Part shown: positions 29,804-39,932 of the stretch, piece by piece | Numbering within the stretch: position 1 is the stretch's first letter | How the letters are laid out: the number at the start of each line of letters is the position of its first letter | NCBI GenBank assembly: GCA_027365345.1 | Contig: DAHXNO010000017.1 | Coordinates: 1 to 39,947 of the forward strand | Length of the DNA stretch: 39,947 nt | DNA from: Granulicella sp. | GTDB taxonomy: Bacteria > Acidobacteriota > Terriglobia > Terriglobales > Acidobacteriaceae | Reading direction: 5' to 3' | Translations under genes and position numbers: made by a program | Notes under the pieces: model-generated | The model's database searches: none | Told to the model about the DNA's origin: nothing | Seen by the model: only the letters and a program-made list of their open reading frames with translations

Positions 29804-30633
29804 GGTTTCTCCTTGCTTCGTTCGAATGCTGTGATGGGTTGGGATGGCCGAGTGCAGAAGTCCCTTGCAGAGAGGAACTGAGCCACCTGCGCAATGAGTG
29901 CGCTGGTCTGCTCACGGTGCGGGAGGTGGCCCGCCTCGGGAAAGACATGTGATTCAAGATTTGGCAGATATTGCCGCAGTACATCGAGGTGTGCGTTGGT
30001 TCCAAATTCGTCGCGGCCGCCTTGGAAGACCTGGACGGGACATTGGATCCGACGAAGCAACTCGCGGGGGAAAAAATCTTCCAGCCTCATGCGTAGAACC
30101 CACTTGGCCCAATGGCTGAAGACTCCGTCGGCGTCGCGATGATATTTGGCTAAGTTGGCCTGGAGTCTGCTGCCGGGGTAGGTTTCCACGAGATTCTGGA
30201 CATAGTGGTGCACAGCTTCATCCGGATTGAGGTGCGGACTTTCCAGAATGAGAGCGCGGGGGGAGGCGCCGGATGCGGCGTACAGCATGGCGATGGCTGC
30301 GCCTTCGCTGTGGCCGTACAGAACCGGATCGGAGATTCCGTAGATTGCGAGCAGAGCTGGAATCACTTTTTGCACCTGACGCTGGTAATGCGCGGCATCG
30401 CGCTCTTCGAGAGGACCTTCGGAGCTTCCATGTCCAGGCCGTGAGTAGCTCAGGACGTGGTAGCTGGTAGCTCGGCATAATTGTTGGGGAAAATCTTTCC
30501 AATAGCTCACTGAACCAAGAGCCTCGTGCAGCAGGAGGATGGTTCCGCGGGCTGCCGGCGCGGCCTGATAGGCCACTTCGACTTGTTTCCCGAGGATCAA
30601 CTGAAATTCCGGTGAGGACAATGCGGATGCCAT
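29800..30633 (-). CDS. Alpha/beta hydrolase
   Basis: 277 residues with the alpha/beta hydrolase fold: oxyanion region LLLHEALGSVSYW, nucleophile elbow G-H-S-E-G with Ser109, and acid and base at Asp208 (GGRDEFG) and His236 (EAGHLPHRE). Likely an esterase, lipase or thioesterase-like enzyme in the cytoplasm; no signal peptide is seen from this start. The frame is open to 30765, but the ATG at 30633 forms TAATG with the stop of the ligase gene and gives the expected start just before the first strand. Lying between an acyl-CoA ligase and an outer-membrane barrel, it may release acyl chains from esters for activation (inference). Confidence 0.87.
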   Translation of the reverse strand: MASALSSPEFQLILGKQVEVAYQAAPAARGTILLLHEALGSVSYWKDFPQQLCRATSYHVLSYSRPGHGSSEGPLEERDAAHYQRQVQKVIPALLAIYGISDPVLYGHSEGAAIAMLYAASGASPRALILESPHLNPDEAVHHYVQNLVETYPGSRLQANLAKYHRDADGVFSHWAKWVLRMRLEDFFPRELLRRIQCPVQVFQGGRDEFGTNAHLDVLRQYLPNLESHVFPEAGHLPHREQTSALIAQVAQFLSARDFCTRPSQPITAFERSKEKP

Positions 30634-32369
30634 TATTGCGCCTCCAGCCAGAGAATTCGTTTGCCCGCAAGCTCCCATTGCCGGAACTGCGAGGAGTAAC
30701 GTTGTTCCAGAGCGAATCGGCGCACCTTGAAGGTCGGGGTGAGATAGCCGTTGTCTATCGTCCACGGCTGCTGCGAAACAGCGATGAAGCCGAGATGCTC
30801 CGCTGTCTCCAGATTTGCGTTGACACGCTGCAAGCAGGCTTCGAGCTCGGCTTCGACCTGGGCGCGATGCTTCGGGTTTAAGCAGGCTTCACGCCGTTCC
30901 GGCGAGAGAACGGCGAGGGCAAAGGGCTGATTGACGCCCTCGCCGAAGACCGCTACGCTCTCAAAGATGTTGGTCACGGTCAGGAGTTCCTCGATGCGAG
31001 CCGGATAGACGTACTTGCCTTTGGAGGTCTTGAACTCTTCCTTGAGCCGGCCAACCAGGCGGAGGCGGCCTTCGGCATCGATCTCTCCGCGGTCGCCGGT
31101 GCAGAAGAATCCATCCGAGGTAAAAGCAGCGCGGGTCTTTTCCGGATTGCGGAAGTATCCCAACATATTCATGGGTCCGCGAATCTGTATCTCCCCTTCG
31201 GGCGAGATTCGGGTTTCCGCATAGGGGCTGGCCTGGCCGACAAAGCCCACGCGCTCCGAGCCCGGCAGGGGAACATGCGTGATGCCGGTTTCCGTCATGC
31301 CGTAGCCTTCGATAAAGTTCAATCCCAAGCTGCGGTACCAGCGGATCAGATCCACCGGTGTGGCGGCTCCGCCACCGGCCAGGATGCGGGTGTGGTCCAG
31401 CCCGAGGCCGCGCCGGATCTTTCTTCGGGTGAGTGCGCCCACCACAGGCAGCGCCAGAAGCAGCCGCAGCCGTTTCTCCGAAACGCGCTCGTAGACCTTC
31501 TGCTGAAAACGAGCGTAAAGCCGAGGTACGGAGAAAAATACCGTGGAACGGGCGCGGGCAAGATCCGTAGGGAATGTTTCCAGACTTTCGACAAAGTAGA
31601 TTTCAACCGGCGAGAAGAGCGCGTTCATCTCGATGAGAGCGCGTTCAGCGATATGGGCCAGGGGCAAATAGGAGAGGACGCGATCAGTCTCCGTCAGGCC
31701 GGCAGGAAACTGCGACTGCATCGACAACCCCATCATGCTGAGGCCCTGGAAGGAGTGGATCGCGCCTTTGGGCTGGCCGGTGCTGCCGGATGAGTAGATG
31801 ATGGTGGCGACATCCAGCGCGTCGCGCAGCGGGCTGTGCTGGAGCGGCGGCTGGGCTGTCAGCAGGTCATTCCAATGCAGGCAATGAGCGGGGAGGGAGG
31901 CGGGATCGGCGTCCGGGCATGCGATGGAAACAAAGGAATCTGTGCTTTGGGGCGAGTTGGGGATCGCATGCTCAAAGCGCCCCAGGAAGCAGGCTACCGG
32001 ACCGCAGTGCTCGCAGATGGCTTCCTTGGTTTGCAAGCTGGCGGAAGGAAAGAGCGGAACGCTGACGTATCCGGCCATCCAGATAGCAAAGTCAGCCATG
32101 AGCCACCATGCGCTGTTTTTGCCCAGAATGATGATGCGCGATCCGGCAGGCCAGCGCTGCGCCTTGAGCCATGCCGCCATCCGCCGAACCTCCAGCATGG
32201 CTTCGCCCCAGGTCCAGGTGCGGGTTGTGCCCTGGATGGGCTGGACAAGAAAGCGCATCCATCTGCGCTCTTGCTCAAATGCGTAAAGCCTCTGGAGGGG
32301 AAGCTCTCGCGGGTTGAGCACAGCCGTGGCGGCGGGGTTGGCGCCGATACTCTCCGTAACGATCCGTTC
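30633..32369 (-). CDS. AMP-forming acyl-CoA synthetase (long-chain type)
   Basis: Activates a carboxylic acid, probably a fatty acid, with ATP and CoA. 578 residues with the adenylate-forming core motifs: P-loop YSSGSTGQPKG at 193-203, EGYGMTETGITH, FCTGDRGEIDAEGRLRLVGR, and SKGKYVYPARIEELL, the hinge region of long-chain ligases. I chose the ATG at 32369 (GAGG about ten bases upstream) over a GTG at 32405 that would add an Arg-rich piece. It heads an operon with the hydrolase and beta-barrel genes, and is divergent from an SDR gene. The neighbouring beta-oxidation operon supports fatty acid or a related branched or aromatic acid as substrate. Confidence 0.9.
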   Translation of the reverse strand, partial: ERIVTESIGANPAATAVLNPRELPLQRLYAFEQERRWMRFLVQPIQGTTRTWTWGEAMLEVRRMAAWLKAQRWPAGSRIIILGKNSAWWLMADFAIWMAGYVSVPLFPSASLQTKEAICEHCGPVACFLGRFEHAIPNSPQSTDSFVSIACPDADPASLPAHCLHWNDLLTAQPPLQHSPLRDALDVATIIYSSGSTGQPKGAIHSFQGLSMMGLSMQSQFPAGLTETDRVLSYLPLAHIAERALIEMNALFSPVEIYFVESLETFPTDLARARSTVFFSVPRLYARFQQKVYERVSEKRLRLLLALPVVGALTRRKIRRGLGLDHTRILAGGGAATPVDLIRWYRSLGLNFIEGYGMTETGITHVPLPGSERVGFVGQASPYAETRISPEGEIQIRGPMNMLGYFRNPEKTRAAFTSDGFFCTGDRGEIDAEGRLRLVGRLKEEFKTSKGKYVYPARIEELLTVTNIFESVAVFGEGVNQPFALAVLSPERREACLNPKHRAQVEAELEACLQRVNANLETAEHLGFIAVSQQPWTIDNGYLTPTFKVRRFALEQRYSSQFRQWELAGKRILWLEAQ

Positions 32370-32559
32370 CATAGAAGAACGCCTCAACCGTAAAAATCTA
32401 ACCACCGGGTAAAATAATCATTCTTGTAGACGTTTGTCACGAACTTTTTTACTATCGGGACAGAAAAAGCTTTCCAGTATTCGGTTCGCGGGGCGGAATG
32501 GGCTGCCCACTATGCCGGATCATTGATAGTATTTATAAGAAAATAAAGGAGATAATACT
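32370..32559. promoter_or_regulatory. Divergent promoter region of acyl-CoA ligase and SDR genes
   Basis: AT-rich 190-base gap. AAAGGAG at 32546-32551 (with the preceding A) is the ribosome site for the TTG start at 32560. The stretch around 32525-32545 (TTGATAGTATTTATAAG) is the likely -10 area for the rightward gene. I searched for the TGACC-type palindromes found at the fad promoter and did not see one here. Confidence 0.4.
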
Positions 32560-33378
32560 TTGTCGAGCCTAAAGGGAAAGACCTTGCTGATTACCGGAGC
32601 CAGTCGAGGGATCGGGTTGGCCATCGCTCTGCGAGCAGCCCGGGAAGGCGCCCACATTGTTCTGCTGGCCAAGACGACCGAGCCGCATCCCCGTCTGCCG
32701 GGCACCATTTTTACGGCCGCCTCTGAGATTGAAAAGGCTGGCGGCAAATCGCTTCCGCTGGCCGTGGACATCCGGTTTGAGGATCAGATTCAGCAAGCGG
32801 TGCAGCGCGGAGCGGAGCACTTTGGTGGGATTGACATCCTGGTGAACAACGCCAGCGCCATCAGCCTGACCGGCACGACAGAGACCAGCATGAAGCGGTT
32901 TGACCTGATGATGGGCGTGAATGTGCGCGGAAGCTTCGCCTGCGCGCAGGCTTGTCTTCCGTATCTGAAGAACGCGGAAAACCCACACATTCTGATGCTG
33001 TCGCCGCCGATCGATCTGCGTCCCAAGTGGTTTGCCCCGCATACGGCTTACACGATCTCCAAGTATGGAATGAGCATGTGCGTGCTGGGCATGGCCGAGG
33101 AGTTTCGTTCGTTGGGGATTGCGGTGAACGCACTTTGGCCGCGGACCGTGATCGCTACCGCGGCGCTGCAGGCGATTCCCGGAATGGACGGCGCACCGGC
33201 GAGAAGTCCGGAGATTGTGGCGGACGCGGCTGCGGTTATTCTGAAGCAGGAGGCGCGTTCGACCAGCGGCAATTTCTTCATTGATGAAGAGGTGCTGCGG
33301 GCCGCGGGCGTCACGGAGTTCAGCAGGTATGAGACACAGCCAGGGCGGCCGATGCTGACCGACCTGTTTCTGGATTGA
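32560..33378 (+). CDS. Short-chain dehydrogenase, HSDL2-like
   Basis: NAD(P)-dependent SDR of 272 residues. Cofactor motif TGASRGIG at 12-19, NNAS at 97-100, catalytic Ser148, Tyr164 and Lys168 (AYTISKYGM). The phrases AKTTEPHPRLPGTI and LSPPIDLRPKWF are characteristic of the hydroxysteroid-dehydrogenase-like-2 group, which lies near fatty-acid or isoprenoid-acid catabolism in bacteria; the true substrate is unknown. Start is TTG with AAAGGAG eight bases upstream. Setting between the acyl-CoA ligase and the fad operon suggests oxidation of an acyl-chain alcohol or hydroxyacyl compound (inference). Confidence 0.88.
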   Translation: MSSLKGKTLLITGASRGIGLAIALRAAREGAHIVLLAKTTEPHPRLPGTIFTAASEIEKAGGKSLPLAVDIRFEDQIQQAVQRGAEHFGGIDILVNNASAISLTGTTETSMKRFDLMMGVNVRGSFACAQACLPYLKNAENPHILMLSPPIDLRPKWFAPHTAYTISKYGMSMCVLGMAEEFRSLGIAVNALWPRTVIATAALQAIPGMDGAPARSPEIVADAAAVILKQEARSTSGNFFIDEEVLRAAGVTEFSRYETQPGRPMLTDLFLD

Positions 33379-33385
33379 GCGCAGC

Positions 33386-33480
33386 AAAACCCTGCTGGTT
33401 TGGGCGCAAGCCATGTTCCTGGGCTAGCCCAGGACAGGCAAGCAGGGACAGACACAGGGTGGTGAGCCAAACAGGGTTTT
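33386..33480. repeat. Nested inverted repeats between SDR and TetR genes
   Basis: A perfect 18-bp palindrome (TCCTGGGCTAGCCCAGGA, 33417-33434) is framed by a second inverted pair, AAAACCCTG (33386-33394) and CAGGGTTTT (33472-33480). Minus the central palindrome the whole could fold as one large cruciform. It lies past the SDR stop and about 60 bases before the TetR start, so it may be terminator, operator or both. Confidence 0.6.
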
Positions 33481-33537
33481 GAGATTGCCTACGTTGCAGG
33501 CGCGCCCGACGCCGATCGACTTGGAAGGAGATGCGGA

Positions 33538-34194
33538 TTGCCGACTGAAAGCAAGGACACTGAATCCGTTGTATCGGCTCATGAGCCATGGAAGGCGTTC
33601 AATGTGCGCTCGCAGCACCGCATGGACACCAAGCGGGATGCGGTGTTGCAGACCGCCGCGAAGTTATATCTGGAGAAGGGGTACCACAAGACCTCCATGA
33701 GTGAGCTTGCCGCTCGGCTGAACATCACGAAGCCGGCGCTGTATTACTATTTCCGCAACAAGGAAGACCTGCTAGTGGGGTGCTATCGGGCGGGGATCGA
33801 GTCAATCGAAGCGTCTCTGCGCGAGGCCGGGGACTGCAAGGGTACGGGCCTGGAAAGGCTACGTGCCTATGTGGAATCGTATGCGACGGCGATCGCGACC
33901 ACCGACTTTGGCCGTTGCGTGCCCACGCTGGACGACGCCGAACTCTCCAGTCCCGCTCGCCGCCAGGTGCGGGATTTGAAACGGCGCATTGACGCCGCCA
34001 TTCGAGCCAATATCGAGCAGGGAATTGCAGACGGATCGATTGTCCCCTGCAATGCCAAGCTGGCCACATTCGCCATTGCCGGCGCGATCAACTGGATCGG
34101 AACCTGGTATAAACCGGGTGGAGGGCTGGGCGCAGCGGAGATTGTCTCAGAATTTTCGCGGCTTTTGATGTCAGGATTGGCCACAAGGTCCTAG
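33538..34194 (+). CDS. TetR-family regulator, probable fatty-acid degradation repressor
   Basis: 218 residues. TetR DNA-binding domain with helix KRDAVLQTAAKLYLEKGYHKTS and helix-turn-helix MSELAARLNITKPALYYYFRNKEDLL (about 54-79), then a ligand domain of the TetR_C type typical of fatty acid-related regulators. The frame begins with TTG at 33538, with GGAAGGAG upstream; the first 25 residues are an unstructured arm. It lies 262 bases upstream of the fadNAE-like operon in the same direction, and that gap contains two matching 14-bp palindromes. By analogy with TetR-type FadR proteins, acyl-CoA would release it from DNA (inference). Confidence 0.87.
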   Translation: MPTESKDTESVVSAHEPWKAFNVRSQHRMDTKRDAVLQTAAKLYLEKGYHKTSMSELAARLNITKPALYYYFRNKEDLLVGCYRAGIESIEASLREAGDCKGTGLERLRAYVESYATAIATTDFGRCVPTLDDAELSSPARRQVRDLKRRIDAAIRANIEQGIADGSIVPCNAKLATFAIAGAINWIGTWYKPGGGLGAAEIVSEFSRLLMSGLATRS

Positions 34195-34309: not shown

Positions 34310-34338
34310 TTGACTTTTGACCGCACGTTCAGTACTAT
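34310..34338 (+). promoter_or_regulatory. Promoter of the beta-oxidation operon
   Basis: TTGACT at 34310-34315 and TACTAT at 34333-34338 are separated by exactly 17 bases and each has only minor deviations from the sigma-70 consensus. The spacer is almost filled by the operator at 34318-34331. Transcription would start near 34345, leaving a leader of about 110 bases before fadN. Confidence 0.65.
34318..34331. promoter_or_regulatory. Operator site 1, between -35 and -10
   Basis: TGACCG-CA-CGTTCA, a 14-bp palindrome with 6-bp arms and one mismatch, placed exactly between the two promoter hexamers. A repressor here would block RNA polymerase. It matches site 2 in layout and in the TGACC half-site, so both are probably bound by the same protein, most simply the TetR regulator encoded upstream. 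Confidence 0.65.
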
Positions 34339-34367
34339 TCATTCGCCAAGGGAGATGGAGTTTTATT

Positions 34368-34381
34368 TGACCTGAAGGTCA
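34368..34381. promoter_or_regulatory. Operator site 2, downstream of the promoter
   Basis: TGACCT-GA-AGGTCA, a perfect 14-bp palindrome with 6-bp arms, 36 bases beyond the end of site 1. It lies in the predicted leader, where bound repressor could block elongation or cooperate with site 1. Confidence 0.65.
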
Positions 34382-34456: not shown

Positions 34457-36883
34457 ATGGACCTACAGTCCAGTCCAGTTGCCGTTTCCCGGCCGGGAAC
34501 GAGCGAGTATCCCATCCGGCGTGTGGCCGTGCTGGGGGCGGGAACCATGGGCGCGCGCATTGCCGCGCACGTGGTTGATTCCGGAGTTCCGGTGTTGCTG
34601 CTGGATGTGGTGGCCCCCGGAGCGGATCGCAATGCGGTTGTGGCGCGGGGTATGGAGGCTCTGAAGAAATCCAAACCCGCTGCTTTTGCCCTTCCCTCTC
34701 TGGCAGGCATGATCGCGATCGGCAACTTTGAGGATGATCTGCCGCGCCTGCACGATTGCGACTGGGTGATCGAGGCGGTGGCGGAGAATCTGGAGATCAA
34801 GCGTAGCCTTCTGGCTCGGGTGATTCCGCACCTGCACGCCAGGGCGATTTTGACCACCAATACGAGCGGATTGCCGGTGACGAAGATTGCAGCCGAATTC
34901 CCAGCCTCGGTGCGGCAGCGATGGTTTGGCGCGCACTTTTTCAATCCGCCGCGGTACATGCGGCTGGTGGAGTTGATTGCGACCGCAGAGAGCGACCCCG
35001 ATGCGCTGGCGGCAATTGCCGACTTTTGCGACCGCAAGTTGGGGAAGGCCGTGGTTCCAGCGCACGATACGCCCAACTTTATCGCCAATCGCATTGGCAC
35101 CTTCGCCATGCTCAATACGGTCCGCATCATGCAGCAGCAGGGGTTGACCGTGGAAGAGGTCGATCTGCTGACTGGCCAGATCGTAGGCTGGCCCAAGACC
35201 GGAACCTTTCGGCTTGCGGATATGGTGGGCATCGACGTACTGGGGCATGTGGCGCGGAACTTTGCCGCCAACGCCAGCGATGAGCGCCAGGATGTGAAGC
35301 TGCCCGTGGTGATTGAGAAGTTGATGGAACACAATTGGCTGGGCGATAAGACTGGCCAGGGCTTCTACAAGAAGCAGCGCGGCGCGGGCCGTGACCAGCT
35401 TGAAGTGCTGGACTTCGAGAGCCTCCAATATCGTCCCGTGGCGCGGGCCTCTCTGCCGGAGGTGGAGATGGCGAAGACCAGCGATTCGCTGCCGGGGAGG
35501 ATTCGGGCGCTGCTGGGTGGCGATCCGCGTGGCAAGGCAGCGCGCTTCTATCGGCAGATGCTGCCGGAGCTGTGGATCTATGCCGCCAACCGTATTGGCG
35601 AAGTGGCTGAATCCATTGTCGACATCGACCGTGCGATGAAGACCGGCTTCAACTGGGAGCTTGGTCCCTTTGAGATGTGGGATGCGGCCGGGGTGACGGA
35701 GACTGTGGCTCTGATGCGGGCAGCGGAGATGCCGCTCCCTGCGGTGGTGGGAGCGGTGCTGGCTGCAGGCGGCGCGTGGTATCGCCAGGGTGGCGATGAG
35801 TACTTTGATCCCGCCAGCGGTGGTTACAAAAAGCGGGAACTGGATCTCGGCCTGGCGCCAGTGAACTTCTACAAGAAGAGTCGTGGTGAGGTAGCGGGCA
35901 ATTCGAGCATTTCGCTGGTCGATCTGGGCGATGGAATTGCCTGCTTTGAGTTCCACTCCAAGATGAACAGCCTTGGGCAGGACATTCAGCAGTTCATCCA
36001 GCAGGTGCTTACCCCCTCCAGCGAACACGTGCGCAACTTCGAGGGCTTCATCATCACGAGCGATGCCGCCAATTTTTCGGTGGGCGCCAACCTGATGCAA
36101 TTGTTGATGGCGATTCAGGATCAAGAGTGGGACGAGATTGACCTTTTCACGCGCGCCTTCCAGGCGATGACGCAGGCCATCAAGTTCTGTCCGCGGCCTG
36201 TGGTGGCGGCTCCCTTTGGGCTTTGCCTGGGTGGGGGAACAGAGATCTGCCTGCACTCGGCGCTGCGTCAACCGCATCTGGAGCTGTACACCGGGCTGGT
36301 GGAAACCGGCGTGGGTCTGGTTCCAGCCGGCGGAGGCTGCAAGGAGATGGCGCTGCGCGCCCTTGCTGCAGCGAACGCGGTGAAGGCGGATAGCCGAGGA
36401 GAATCCGTGGAGGTCTATGACGCGTTCCGCAGCATCTTCGAGACCATCGCCATGGCGAAGGTTTCTACGTCCGCGCTGGAGGCCAAGGCCATGCGGATTG
36501 TAGAGGCCGGCGAGATGGTGACGATGAATCGCGAGCGGCTGGTGGCCGATGCCAAGGCGCAGGCGTTACGTCTGGTGCGGGCCGGCTATCGTCCGCCGCT
36601 GCCGGAGACGGCGATTCCCGCACCTGGTGAGAATGTGCGCGCCACGCTGCAGATGGGCGCTTATTTCCTGCGCCAGGGTGAGTACATCAGCGATCACGAT
36701 GTGAAGATCGCCAATCACGTAGCGCATATTCTCGCCGGCGGAAAGCTGCCGGCAGGAACTCTGATCAGCGAACAGTACCTGCTGGATCTGGAACGGGAAG
36801 CCTTTGTTTCGCTCTGCGGTGAACCGAAGACCGCTGAGCGGATCGCACACACGTTGAAGACCGGCAAACCACTGCGGAACTGA
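34457..36883 (+). CDS. fadN: 3-hydroxyacyl-CoA dehydrogenase/enoyl-CoA hydratase fusion (FadN type)
   Basis: Bifunctional beta-oxidation enzyme: hydrates enoyl-CoA and oxidises 3-hydroxyacyl-CoA with NAD. 808 residues. The dehydrogenase comes first (Rossmann GAGTMG at 27-32, then TNTSGLPVTKIAAEFP, RWFGAHFFNPPRYM and the C-terminal dehydrogenase domains), and the crotonase-like hydratase domain comes last, with CPRPVVAAPFGLCLGGGTEICLHS and GLVETGVGLVPAGGGCKEM carrying the two catalytic glutamates. This order is that of Bacillus-type FadN, opposite to proteobacterial FadB/FadJ. AAGGAG lies before the ATG. It is first in a three-gene operon and under the two operators above. Confidence 0.95.
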   Translation: MDLQSSPVAVSRPGTSEYPIRRVAVLGAGTMGARIAAHVVDSGVPVLLLDVVAPGADRNAVVARGMEALKKSKPAAFALPSLAGMIAIGNFEDDLPRLHDCDWVIEAVAENLEIKRSLLARVIPHLHARAILTTNTSGLPVTKIAAEFPASVRQRWFGAHFFNPPRYMRLVELIATAESDPDALAAIADFCDRKLGKAVVPAHDTPNFIANRIGTFAMLNTVRIMQQQGLTVEEVDLLTGQIVGWPKTGTFRLADMVGIDVLGHVARNFAANASDERQDVKLPVVIEKLMEHNWLGDKTGQGFYKKQRGAGRDQLEVLDFESLQYRPVARASLPEVEMAKTSDSLPGRIRALLGGDPRGKAARFYRQMLPELWIYAANRIGEVAESIVDIDRAMKTGFNWELGPFEMWDAAGVTETVALMRAAEMPLPAVVGAVLAAGGAWYRQGGDEYFDPASGGYKKRELDLGLAPVNFYKKSRGEVAGNSSISLVDLGDGIACFEFHSKMNSLGQDIQQFIQQVLTPSSEHVRNFEGFIITSDAANFSVGANLMQLLMAIQDQEWDEIDLFTRAFQAMTQAIKFCPRPVVAAPFGLCLGGGTEICLHSALRQPHLELYTGLVETGVGLVPAGGGCKEMALRALAAANAVKADSRGESVEVYDAFRSIFETIAMAKVSTSALEAKAMRIVEAGEMVTMNRERLVADAKAQALRLVRAGYRPPLPETAIPAPGENVRATLQMGAYFLRQGEYISDHDVKIANHVAHILAGGKLPAGTLISEQYLLDLEREAFVSLCGEPKTAERIAHTLKTGKPLRN

Positions 36884-36949
36884 TCCAGCGTCGTGCTGAA
36901 ACGAACAGAGAGGGAGACGACCGGTGAAGACCGGCAAGGAGGCGAAACA

Positions 36950-38131
36950 ATGCGGGATGCAGTGATCGTGAGCGCGGTGCGCACGCCAGTGGGCAAGGCT
37001 CCACGCGGCATGCTGAAGAATACCCGCCCGGATGAGTTGGGCGCAGTAGCGGTTCGCGCCGCTGTCGAGCGGGTTGCGAATCTGGAAACCAGGGAGATCG
37101 ACGATGTGATCATGGGCTGCGCGATGCCGGAGGCAGAACAAGGCATGAACGTTGCCCGCGTGCTTGCGTTGCGCGCAGGACTGCCGATCACGGTTTCGGC
37201 GATGACGATCAATCGCTACTGTGCGTCGGGTCTGCAGTCGATCGCATTGGCTTCAGAGCGAATCCGTTGCGGCGGCGCCGAGGTGATTGTGGCCGGTGGT
37301 ACGGAGTCGATGTCGCAGGTGCCGATGGGCGGCAACAAGGTCACCATGAATCCGTGGCTGGCGGAGAACTTTCCCGGCTCGTATATGACCATGGGTCTGA
37401 CTGCGGAGCGCGTGGCCGCGCAGTACAGCGTGAGCCGCGAAGATGCGGACCAGTTCGCCTTTGAGAGCCATCGCAAGGCTGTGCAGGCCATGGCGGCGGG
37501 TGATTTTCAGGACGAGTTGGTTTCCGTTCCGGTCCGCGTAGCCGCGCCCGGTGATGGCAAGCCGGTGGTGACGGAGGTTGAGTTCAGCGCCGACGAAGGA
37601 CCGCGCGCGGATACTTCGCTGGAGGCGCTGGCCAAACTGAAGCCCGCCTTCCATGCCAAGGGTGTGGTGACCGCGGGCAACAGTTCACAGATGTCCGATG
37701 GCGCCGCGGCTGCGGTGCTGATGTCGGAAGAGCGAGCCCAGGCGATTGGCGCGCGGCCCCTGGCGCGGCTGCTGGCCTATGCCTATGCCGGCTGTGAACC
37801 GGAGCTGATGGGCACTGGCCCGATTTATGCCATTCCCAAGGCATTGAAGATGGCGGGGCTAAGCCTGGATCAGATGGAAGTGATCGAGCTGAACGAAGCC
37901 TTCGCTACCCAGTCGCTGGCCGTGATCCGGACGCTGGGAATTGATCCGGCGCGGGTGAACCGCAGCGGCGGCGCGATCGCTCTGGGCCATCCGCTGGGAT
38001 GCACCGGCGCCAAGCTGACGGCAACGCTGCTGGGTGAAATGAAACGAAGCCATGCCCGCTACGGCATGGTAACGATGTGTGTTGGCGGTGGCATGGGCGC
38101 GGCCGGCATCTTCGAAAACCTGCAAGACTAA
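36950..38131 (+). CDS. fadA: Acetyl-CoA acyltransferase (3-ketoacyl-CoA thiolase)
   Basis: Cleaves 3-ketoacyl-CoA with CoA to acetyl-CoA and a shortened acyl-CoA. 393 residues with nucleophile Cys91 ([12 protein letters not shown]), the base histidine in [16 protein letters not shown], and the second cysteine in [11 protein letters not shown]. The frame is open from 36893, but the ATG at 36950 has AAGGAGG seven bases upstream and starts the family exactly ([16 protein letters not shown]). A 13-base direct repeat (TGAAGACCGGCAA) occurs at 36855-36867 in the end of fadN and at 36925-36937 over the ribosome site. Spacing to the neighbours is 66 and 10 bases. Confidence 0.96.
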
Positions 38132-38141
38132 AGGAGAAGCG

Positions 38142-39932
38142 ATGAGCACGGAAACTGTTTTGCATTCTTCCCGCAAGGTGAGCGGTGGCGCTTTTCTGGT
38201 TGACGATCTGCTGCCCGAGGAGATCTTTACGGCAGAGGATCTGAGCGCTGAGCAGAAACAGATGGCGGAGATCACGGCCGACTTCGCCGAGAAGCAGATT
38301 TTAGGCAACATTCAGGAGATTGAGGCGAAGAACTATAGCTTGTCGCGGAAGTTGATGCGCGATCTGGGCGAGCTTGGCCTGTTGAGCGTGGATGTGCCGG
38401 AGGCCTACGGCGGAATGGGGCTGGGACAGGTGACCTCGGCTTTGCTGACCGATAGGATTGCTGTCTCCGGAAGCTTTTCGGTGACCTTCAGCGCGCATGT
38501 GGGCATCGGCATGTTGCCTTTGATCTGGTACGGAACTCCGGAACAGAAACAAAAGTACCTGCCCAAGCTGGCCAGTGGAGAGTGGATTGCGGCCTACGCG
38601 CTCTCTGAGGCTTCAGCGGGATCAGATGCGATGAACATCCACACGCGCGCGGCTTTGTCGCCGGACGGGAAACACTATGTGCTGAACGGCGAGAAGATGT
38701 GGATTTCAAATGCCAGCATGGCAGGCCTGTTTACCATCTTCGCCAAGGTTGACGGGGAACAGTTCACGGCTTTTCTGGTGGAAGCAGGAACGCCGGGATT
38801 GACGGTGGGGCCGGAGGAGCACAAGCTCGGCATCCGCGGTTCTTCTACCTGCCCGCTTGCGCTGGTGGATTGCGCCGTGCCGGTGGAGAATGTGCTGGGC
38901 GAGATCGGCAAGGGGCACCACATCGCTTTCAATGTGCTGGATGTTGGCCGCTACAAGCTGGCGGCCGCGGCCGTGGGCGGGGCGCGTACCGTGCTCCGCG
39001 ACGGCATCCGCTACGGCAGAGATCGGATTGCATTTGGCAAGCCTGTCACTTCATTCGGCCTGATCCAGGAAAAGATTGCAGAGACGGCAGCGGACATCTA
39101 TGCCTGTGAAGCTGCGGTGTATCGCACGGTGGGCGCCATTGACGCCGCCATGCCTGAGGGAGAGAGGACTCCGCAGGAGATCCAGAAGGCGATTGGAGAG
39201 TTTGCGGTGGAGTGTTCGATCCTGAAGTTCTGGGGCTCGGAGATGCTGGAGCGCGCCGTGGACAAGATGTTGCAGATCTTCGGCGGCTACGGTTACGTGG
39301 AAGAGTTTCCTGTGGAGCGCGCCTATAGGGATTCGCGTATCAACAAGATTTTTGAAGGCACCAATGAGATCAATCGCCTGATCACCACTGGCTGGATGAT
39401 CAAGCGAGCGATGCAGGGCCGTCTGGCGCTGCTGCCGGCGATCAAGAAGGTGATGGATGAGGTGATGGCCGGCCCAACGCTGCAAGCGCCGCCAAGCGGA
39501 GTTCTGGGCGCGGAGAGAAACCTGGTGCGCAACGCCAAGAAGCTGGGCCTGTTCTGCTCCGGCGCTGCCTCACAACGGTTCGGTACGGAACTGAGTGAAC
39601 AGCAGGAGGTGGTGGGCATGCTGGCGGATATGCTGGCCGAAATCATGGTCTCTGAGTCTGCGTTGCTACGCGCCGAGAAGTCCGCCGAGCGAATGCCCAT
39701 GGGCGTGCGCCTGGCGAAGTACTTTATCGCCAACTCCTTCCGGCGGATGGTGCTGCTCGCAGAAAAACTGGTGGCCGCGATTGCGGAGGGCGATACGCTG
39801 CGCACGCAGATGGCGATTGTGCGCAGATTGGCCAAGCACGAGCCGGCGAACACGGTGACGCTGGGCCGGGAGATCGCCGCAACCATGGTGGCGGCCGGGC
39901 GTTACACAATCGAGGAAGTCCGCGGTTCGTAG
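38142..39932 (+). CDS. fadE: Acyl-CoA dehydrogenase, two-domain long-chain type
   Basis: FAD-dependent first step of beta-oxidation, acyl-CoA to trans-2-enoyl-CoA. 596 residues, about 200 longer than short-chain members, as in the very-long-chain (VLCAD-like) group and Bacillus FadE, with an extra C-terminal helical domain. Core motifs: LGLLSVDVPEAYGGMG, ALSEASAGSDAMN and MWISNASMAGLF in the FAD/acyl site, FGGYGYVEEFPVERAYRDSRI, and catalytic Glu405 in FEGTNEI. The ATG at 38142 has AAAGGAG before it; an in-frame earlier start at 38079 would overlap fadA and lacks support. Third gene of the fad operon; the window ends 15 bases after its stop. Confidence 0.95.
   Translation: MSTETVLHSSRKVSGGAFLVDDLLPEEIFTAEDLSAEQKQMAEITADFAEKQILGNIQEIEAKNYSLSRKLMRDLGELGLLSVDVPEAYGGMGLGQVTSALLTDRIAVSGSFSVTFSAHVGIGMLPLIWYGTPEQKQKYLPKLASGEWIAAYALSEASAGSDAMNIHTRAALSPDGKHYVLNGEKMWISNASMAGLFTIFAKVDGEQFTAFLVEAGTPGLTVGPEEHKLGIRGSSTCPLALVDCAVPVENVLGEIGKGHHIAFNVLDVGRYKLAAAAVGGARTVLRDGIRYGRDRIAFGKPVTSFGLIQEKIAETAADIYACEAAVYRTVGAIDAAMPEGERTPQEIQKAIGEFAVECSILKFWGSEMLERAVDKMLQIFGGYGYVEEFPVERAYRDSRINKIFEGTNEINRLITTGWMIKRAMQGRLALLPAIKKVMDEVMAGPTLQAPPSGVLGAERNLVRNAKKLGLFCSGAASQRFGTELSEQQEVVGMLADMLAEIMVSESALLRAEKSAERMPMGVRLAKYFIANSFRRMVLLAEKLVAAIAEGDTLRTQMAIVRRLAKHEPANTVTLGREIAATMVAAGRYTIEEVRGS

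Follow-up and report, generated by a model that had tools for sequence, protein, structure and literature searches.

Introduction

Bacillus subtilis FadR, a repressor with a TetR fold, acts on target genes of the same kind as the fad genes described here, through an operator whose consensus we take to be TGAATGA-N4-TCATTCA. In Thermus thermophilus, PfmR (TTHB023) recognizes sites of 14-bp layout with the consensus (a/c)Y(g/t)A(A/C)YGryCR(g/t)T(c/a)R(g/t), and the excerpted account of this protein maps its sites to fatty acid biosynthesis promoters (PMC7022988). SbtR (TTHA0167) from the same organism has a 14-bp consensus as well, written TGACTGGCCAGTCA in excerpts of PMC4948773 and TGACYrnnyRGTCA in those of PMC7022988, and T. 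thermophilus FadR (TTHA0101) has a 15-bp consensus, TTRNACYNRGTNYAA (PMC5597230, in excerpt). Exchange of regulators is described for Proteobacteria, where FadR, PsrA and FadP, which are not orthologous, replace each other over one pathway (excerpts of PMC5343134).

Here we analyze a fatty acid degradation locus in an acidobacterium; among the titles listed in searches of the openly licensed literature, we saw none on fatty acid breakdown under the control of a TetR protein in Acidobacteria. The window, by which we mean the whole stretch of DNA analyzed, comprises 39,947 nt of Granulicella sp. (contig DAHXNO010000017.1 of assembly GCA_027365345.1, positions 1 to 39,947, forward strand). It encodes a TetR protein that shares its fold with Bacillus-type FadR, but the predicted operators at its fadN promoter have a 14-bp layout rather than the form TGAATGA-N4-TCATTCA. 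That layout and TGAC-type arms are common to these sites and to the published SbtR and PfmR sites (PMC7022988 and PMC4948773, in excerpt). Site 1 fits the excerpted PfmR consensus except at its two central bases, and site 2 departs from it at arm positions 6 and 9. PfmR, however, has fatty acid biosynthesis as its target (excerpts of PMC7022988), whereas the target here is a fadN beta-oxidation operon, and the identity of 29% between PfmR and the window's TetR is too low for orthology to be inferred. T. thermophilus FadR is a repressor of the TetR family linked to the degradation of fatty acids, but its operator layout, as excerpted, is unlike that of the window (PMC5597230). We consider it highly probable that the window's TetR is a dedicated repressor of fadN, thiolase and fadE, and probably also of acs and the SDR gene, via 14-bp operators, and that acyl-CoA releases it.

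Genes and Predicted Operators in the Window

The predicted repressor gene, tetR (33538–34194, forward strand; Pfam TetR_N 2.8e-17, TetR_C_24 2.1e-25), sits between a gene for an SDR-family oxidoreductase (32560–33378) and three genes of fatty acid degradation, all on the forward strand. These are the predicted regulated gene, which encodes a fadN-like 3-hydroxyacyl-CoA dehydrogenase/enoyl-CoA hydratase (34457–36883), a fadA-like thiolase gene (36893–38131) and the acyl-CoA dehydrogenase gene fadE (38079–39932; NF058590, 736.7 bits against a cut-off of 600), whose reading frame is drawn from its first start and overlaps the 3′ end of the thiolase gene. Upstream, and divergent from the SDR gene, lies a gene for an AMP-binding acyl-CoA synthetase (acs; 30633–32405, reverse strand). 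Between the SDR gene and tetR, a strong single-copy inverted repeat, AAAACCCTG...CAGGGTTTT (33384–33485), folds with about −45 kcal/mol and is possibly a terminator or attenuator, which would keep the two transcripts separate.

The fadN promoter consists of a −35 box, TTGACT (34310–34315), and a −10 box, TACTAT (34333–34338), both on the forward strand and 17 bp apart (18 bp in more distant relatives). Predicted operator 1, TGACCGCACGTTCA (34318–34331, forward strand), lies inside this spacer and pairs at five of six arm positions; predicted operator 2, TGACCTGAAGGTCA (34368–34381, no strand assigned), pairs at all six, and its center, 50 bp downstream of that of operator 1, probably lies just beyond the start of transcription. 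The initial annotation had described both palindromes, the two boxes with their 17-base spacer and a TetR gene directly upstream, and all of these are found where it placed them. A weaker predicted operator 3, TAACCACCGGGTAA (32399–32412, no strand assigned; 8.0 bits), falls in the divergent acs/SDR promoter region, at a position where the close relatives L141–L143 carry TAACCGNTGGGTAA (12.0–13.5 bits); the initial annotation had overlooked it. Operator 3 overlaps one of two start candidates for acs, a GTG at 32405; the other, an ATG at 32372, is the more probable one. When every 14-mer of the window was scored with a matrix built from 47 sites of genomes other than the window's own, to which the near relatives L141–L143 contribute, operator 1 ranked first (34318; 15.9 bits), operator 2 second (34368; 11.3 bits) and operator 3 fifth.

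The TetR Protein and Its Candidate Ligand

The protein carries a TetR_N helix-turn-helix domain (PF00440, 62.7 bits; cut-off 24), and its AlphaFold model is helical (pLDDT 86). Foldseek places it closest to PfmR (3vpr), 3dcf and AibR bound to isovaleryl-CoA, with PfmR as the first match (TM-score 0.76/0.88); in a PDB sequence search PfmR is second-best after 3dcf (4.2e-22). VIA-align Z-scores are 19.1–21.7 for DarR, 3him, AibR, KstR2 and PfmR, and 18.2–18.5 for B. subtilis FadR (3whb/3whc) with and without stearoyl-CoA.

The initial annotation had called the repressor FadR-like. The term holds for its role, given the fad operon and a fold near those of acyl-CoA-responsive TetRs, but not for membership in the Bacillus FadR type. 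Against the model for the latter (NF053878) the window's TetR scores 50.6 bits, below the cut-off of 200 and far below the strong matches in its relatives (142–206 bits). A protein tree of 35 sequences (14 window-type, 11 from the 12 FadR-type loci and 10 from 18 others) places the FadR-type proteins on a separate branch with support of 100/100, the window's group having 94/91; neither score nor tree supports that assignment. The best match to TGAATGA-N4-TCATTCA within 450 bp upstream of fadN in the window has more than four mismatches.

Resemblance in fold does not prove a ligand. It is possible, if on balance unlikely, that this TetR binds the sites and responds to a short or branched acyl-CoA or to another lipid instead of a long-chain acyl-CoA: AibR, which binds isovaleryl-CoA, and KstR2, from steroid metabolism, match the model no less closely than the FadRs. 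The targets, however, are genes of beta-oxidation together with one for an acyl-CoA synthetase, but the sequence does not reveal a chain length.

Conservation and Placement of the Sites

Among 150 genomes of the same family, 12 encode a TetR match with 45–100% identity (E≤1.6e-51), the next match having 30% (E=7e-23). In five of the relatives, with TetR identities of 89% (L002), 63% (L003 and L004) and 56% (L006 and L007), the gap between tetR and fadN contains TTGAC, three to four bases, TKACC-N4-GKTMA and GTA. A scan of a named genome collection yielded 80 TetR loci, of which 52 (L141–L191 and L195; TetR identity 35–94%) entered the motif, dyad and matrix counts and 28 (L192–L194 and L196–L220) were excluded as too distant. 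The pattern TKAMC-N4-GKTMA, picked after the first relatives had been viewed, several of which recur among the 52 loci, occurs 47 times within promoter masks (37 loci) and three times elsewhere, the masks covering 39,512 of 520,219 bases. Column-permuted palindromes (119) average 0.95 occurrences inside the masks and 4.1 outside, and those that score highest (24, 19 and 16 loci) all but reproduce the motif itself. The count depends sharply on the gap between the arms: a gap of four gives the 47 masked sites, the next best (two) gives six, and the other gaps from zero to 10 give zero to six.

With a matrix from which each locus was left out in turn, its kin being retained, a masked site of at least 8.7 bits is found in 43 of the 52 loci; for 785 random 800-bp stretches the median best score is −2.4, the 95% point 5.3 and the largest value 19.1. 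No site of that score is present in nine loci, namely L168, the upstream DNA of which is cut off, L177, L179, L190 and L191, and also L185, L187, L188 and L189, which carry a weaker variant. Many of the loci are close kin, and such counts are therefore not independent; the Granulicella-type and Bryobacterales-type loci form the more independent part. A screen for 5-base dyads in 19 locus clusters ranked CTTAC-N6-GTAAG, the operator dyad shifted by one base, first among perfect arms (eight clusters; the next dyad, five). With one mismatch allowed, TTACC-N4-GGTAA came first with 10 clusters, but other dyads, mostly G+C-rich, reach nine, so this unbiased screen is weak on its own.

The site recurs in several settings. 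At 20 of the 52 loci, and likewise in L037 and the window, it is found downstream of tetR and ahead of fadN or etfB, flanked by TTGAC and GTA. In L146 and L148 the promoter precedes etfB, followed in L146 by etfA and an Fe-S oxidoreductase gene; acyl-CoA dehydrogenase passes its electrons to ETF. TTGACT or TTGACA precedes each of the 22 aligned fadN/etf operators, the window's included, and 21 of these operators have the right arm GTTCA followed by GTA, the exception being L037 (genome G064) with GGTAA. The left arm is TTACC, not TGACC, at 12 of the 20 fadN/etf-type loci, as it is in the close relative L141. Where tetR runs straight into fadN, as in the Bryobacterales-type loci, TTACC-N4-GGTAA is found upstream of tetR/acs, and Granulicella-type loci have TTAAC-N4-GGTAA at the acs/SDR or acs/tetR promoter. 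The right arm is GGTAA in all 24 strict matches at tetR/acs promoters, and AGTAA in seven weaker sites that still score 8.7 bits or more (L155, L159, L160, L178, L182, L183 and L186). The sets of 20 and 24 are hand-listed strict-pattern matches, some of which (L156, L158) share an isolate.

In the close clade of the window and L141–L143, nine of 10 arm bases are invariant in site 1 and all 10 in site 2, with no invariant base at the four central positions of either site (four sequences). Invariant bases number 16 of 29 between the −10 box and site 2, nine of 46 downstream and three of 19 upstream. Site 2 was seen in these four loci only, at 50 bp from site 1 in each, and it looks to be under selection there, as judged from the alignment; at the other aligned fadN/etf promoters site 1 was found and a second site was not. 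The paired operators that the initial annotation described thus hold for the window and its closest relatives, but not as a general feature. That the two sites act cooperatively, as had also been suggested, strikes us as doubtful. That four species retain the exact spacing even though 13 of the 29 bases between the −10 box and site 2 vary is suggestive; yet 50 bp corresponds to about 4.8 helical turns, which is no clean in-phase spacing, the remaining aligned promoters show site 1 only, and a simple independent roadblock fits equally well.

Co-occurrence of TetR and Its Putative Operator

The initial annotation had inferred that this TetR acts on these sites, and comparison of genomes, the check that it had proposed, supports the link. 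A site within 450 bp upstream of fadN is present at six of 10 copies in genomes with a TetR ortholog versus none of 100 others (Fisher p=1e-7). These 110 copies come from 133 matches; 23 were left out, including copies cut at contig ends. Two copies were viewed through their TetR loci, that of G148, which is outside the 110 (L009), and that of G087, which falls below the match threshold and has the site (L007). The four copies that lack a site despite a TetR ortholog are those of G040 and G128, where tetR is directly in front of fadN, that of G070, where the TetR (49%) is about 50 kb from fadN, and the second copy of G114.

Presence and absence coincide within genera as well: in genus g63, tetR and site are both present in G138 and G114 and both absent from G062; in genus g9, they are present in G008 and absent from G083, G124 and G144. 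The site also stays near tetR when the target differs (etfB in L146 and L148) or the arrangement does (Bryobacterales-type loci).

Several further observations concern individual genomes. In L179 (Acidobacterium sp. S8) and in G070 (L008/L060), a 49% identical TetR lies away from fadN, with no recognizable operator nearby. The second fadN copy of G114 (L061, contig C52) lacks an operator although the genome has the TetR, and the two copies are probably regulated differently. Outside the phylum, Tistrella mobilis (L184, 5796–5809) carries TTACCC-N2-GGGTAA between an alphaproteobacterial tetR (48%) and a thiolase gene that diverges from it. Its genome contains a further site of this kind (L277, C4:919151), and a Rhodospirillales locus (L180) carries the same sequence. 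Transfer between phyla is a possible explanation.

That the sites serve some regulator other than the adjacent TetR is quite improbable. Thermus SbtR and PfmR both recognize sites of the 14-bp type (excerpts of PMC7022988 and PMC4948773), and the motif alone therefore names no protein. Here, however, the site co-occurs with the window's TetR clade, the masked sites of the 43 loci lie beside tetR, fadN or acs, and the window's genome contains no second match to the window's TetR at E≤1e-3.

Palindromy as such, which we rejected as evidence for operators, would not have carried the case. In simulated 262-bp stretches of the same composition (n=5000), a perfect 6-2-6 palindrome occurs in 7% and two palindromes with at least five arm pairs in 35%, and the window holds 235 14-mers with at least five of six arm pairs. 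The consensus of the initial annotation gives 22 matches at up to two mismatches against 16 expected, a number that 12 of 100 shuffles reach. Exact TGACC-N4-GKTCA occurs twice in the window against 0.08 expected, but the excess is circular because the pattern was derived from the sites themselves. The palindromes being unremarkable by themselves, the case must rest on conservation. Frequent as such palindromes are, the reading that ours are chance promoter features and the spacer operator mere conserved promoter sequence is already contradicted, and we give it hardly any credence, because both arms are conserved around a free center, the motif recurs at other promoters beside tetR and it is missing upstream of all 100 fadN copies examined in genomes that lack the TetR.

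A Second Putative Operator in the Same Promoter Slot

Strong matches to NF053878 (E<1e-40) occur in 39 of the 150 family genomes, two of them above the curated cut-off of 200, and none of the 39 has the window's TetR type, which 12 of the 150 possess (Fisher p=0.04). With up to two mismatches, TGAATGA-N4-TCATTCA is found upstream of 28 of 31 fadN copies in these genomes versus one of 79 others (p=1e-21), the exception, G038, having the 18-bp site but no strong NF053878 protein. Across the 29 upstream regions that carry it (e.g., L045, L046, L049, L056, L070 and L113), TTGAC directly precedes the site in 28 and NTA follows it in all 29 (GTA in 23); 200 shuffled 18-bp templates yield at most three copies. 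The FadR-type site thus occupies the fadN promoter slot that the operator of the window's TetR fills. Two other assignments were dropped: TGAATG-N2-CATTCA proved to be an under-reading of the 18-bp form, and TetRs with 26–30% identity to that of the window (L013–L030) were set aside, though not disproved, as its binders, since the strong NF053878 proteins, which form a different branch of the tree, fit far better. A scan for the 14-bp form found it in none of the 18 loci of these 26–30% identical TetRs.

Three of the examined genomes with a strong FadR-type protein lack the 18-bp form, G067 (L044), G034 (L058) and G098 (L047), and have a 14-bp TGAATR-N2-CRTTCA that is in register with the operator of the window; these sites are possible intermediates between the operator types. 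The G098 promoter reads TTGACTAC-TGAATGGTCGTTCA-GTA and that of the window TTGACTTT-TGACCGCACGTTCA-GTA, with arms that differ at two left-arm bases only (AT to CC). We tentatively raise the idea, which we think has a limited chance of being right, that the fadN promoter is a fixed −35/−10 slot served in turn by two TetR repressors and that the operator in the window arose by conversion of a FadR operator. The right arm GTTCA at fadN/etf promoters, as opposed to GGTAA at tetR/acs promoters, looks as if it were the right half left over from a FadR site. Conversion is made doubtful by the TTACC left arm of many relatives and the GGTAA right arm of L037; given the former, the ancestral step was not necessarily one from TGAATG to TGACCG. 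The shared TTGAC and TANNAT boxes, being common to promoters in general, are by themselves no evidence of homology. Unlike the exchange of FadR, PsrA and FadP in Proteobacteria (excerpts of PMC5343134), the sites of both regulators here share one promoter slot within one bacterial family.

Extent of the Regulon

Compared with its control, the strict motif is rarer in four of six relatives (G409, 15 versus 20; G410, 8 versus 18; G411, 14 versus 18; G412, 3 versus 8) and more frequent in two (G413, 20 versus 16; G414, 14 versus 2), and in the window's genome the looser TKACC-N4-GKTMA occurs 18 times against 46 for the control. These counts give no basis for a wider regulon. A genome-wide regulon was rejected also on location: of the nine other exact matches that the window's genome contains, eight lie inside open reading frames of at least 120 codons, and the ninth is 19 bp before a reading frame without a Pfam family. 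Beyond the cluster sites of L146–L148, the arrangement TTGAC-site-GTA was found only at fadN of G412 among the matches examined in the six relatives, and the stretches around the ETF beta homologs of the window's genome contain no convincing site. The regulator looks local, with a few distant targets still conceivable.

Discussion

The operators, their place within the promoter, their conservation and their co-inheritance with tetR emerge from comparison of sequences, and in conjunction they suggest the following model for the window's TetR as a repressor of fatty acid degradation. We infer that TetR binds and represses, that acyl-CoA is the effector and that the repressor may regulate its own synthesis. 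A TetR dimer would bind the 14-bp operators of the form TKACC-N4-GKTMA. Since operator 1 lies inside the −35/−10 spacer, bound repressor and RNA polymerase should be mutually exclusive, and occupation of this site would fill the spacer and keep the polymerase from the fadN promoter. In the window's lineage, operator 2, just downstream of the start, may provide a second block. Operator 3 may act likewise at acs/SDR, and read-through from there into tetR could give autoregulation. On the arrival of fatty acids, acyl-CoA made by the acyl-CoA synthetase would enter the C-terminal pocket of TetR and release it from the DNA.

The circuit is thus well supported as one of an ordinary type, in a lineage for which we found none described and with an unusually clear footprint. 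It provides a regulator, an operator and a set of targets that are open to test, in a phylum common in soil, and may represent a compact natural instance of one regulator replacing another, where a single promoter allows base-by-base comparison of two operators, possible intermediates included.
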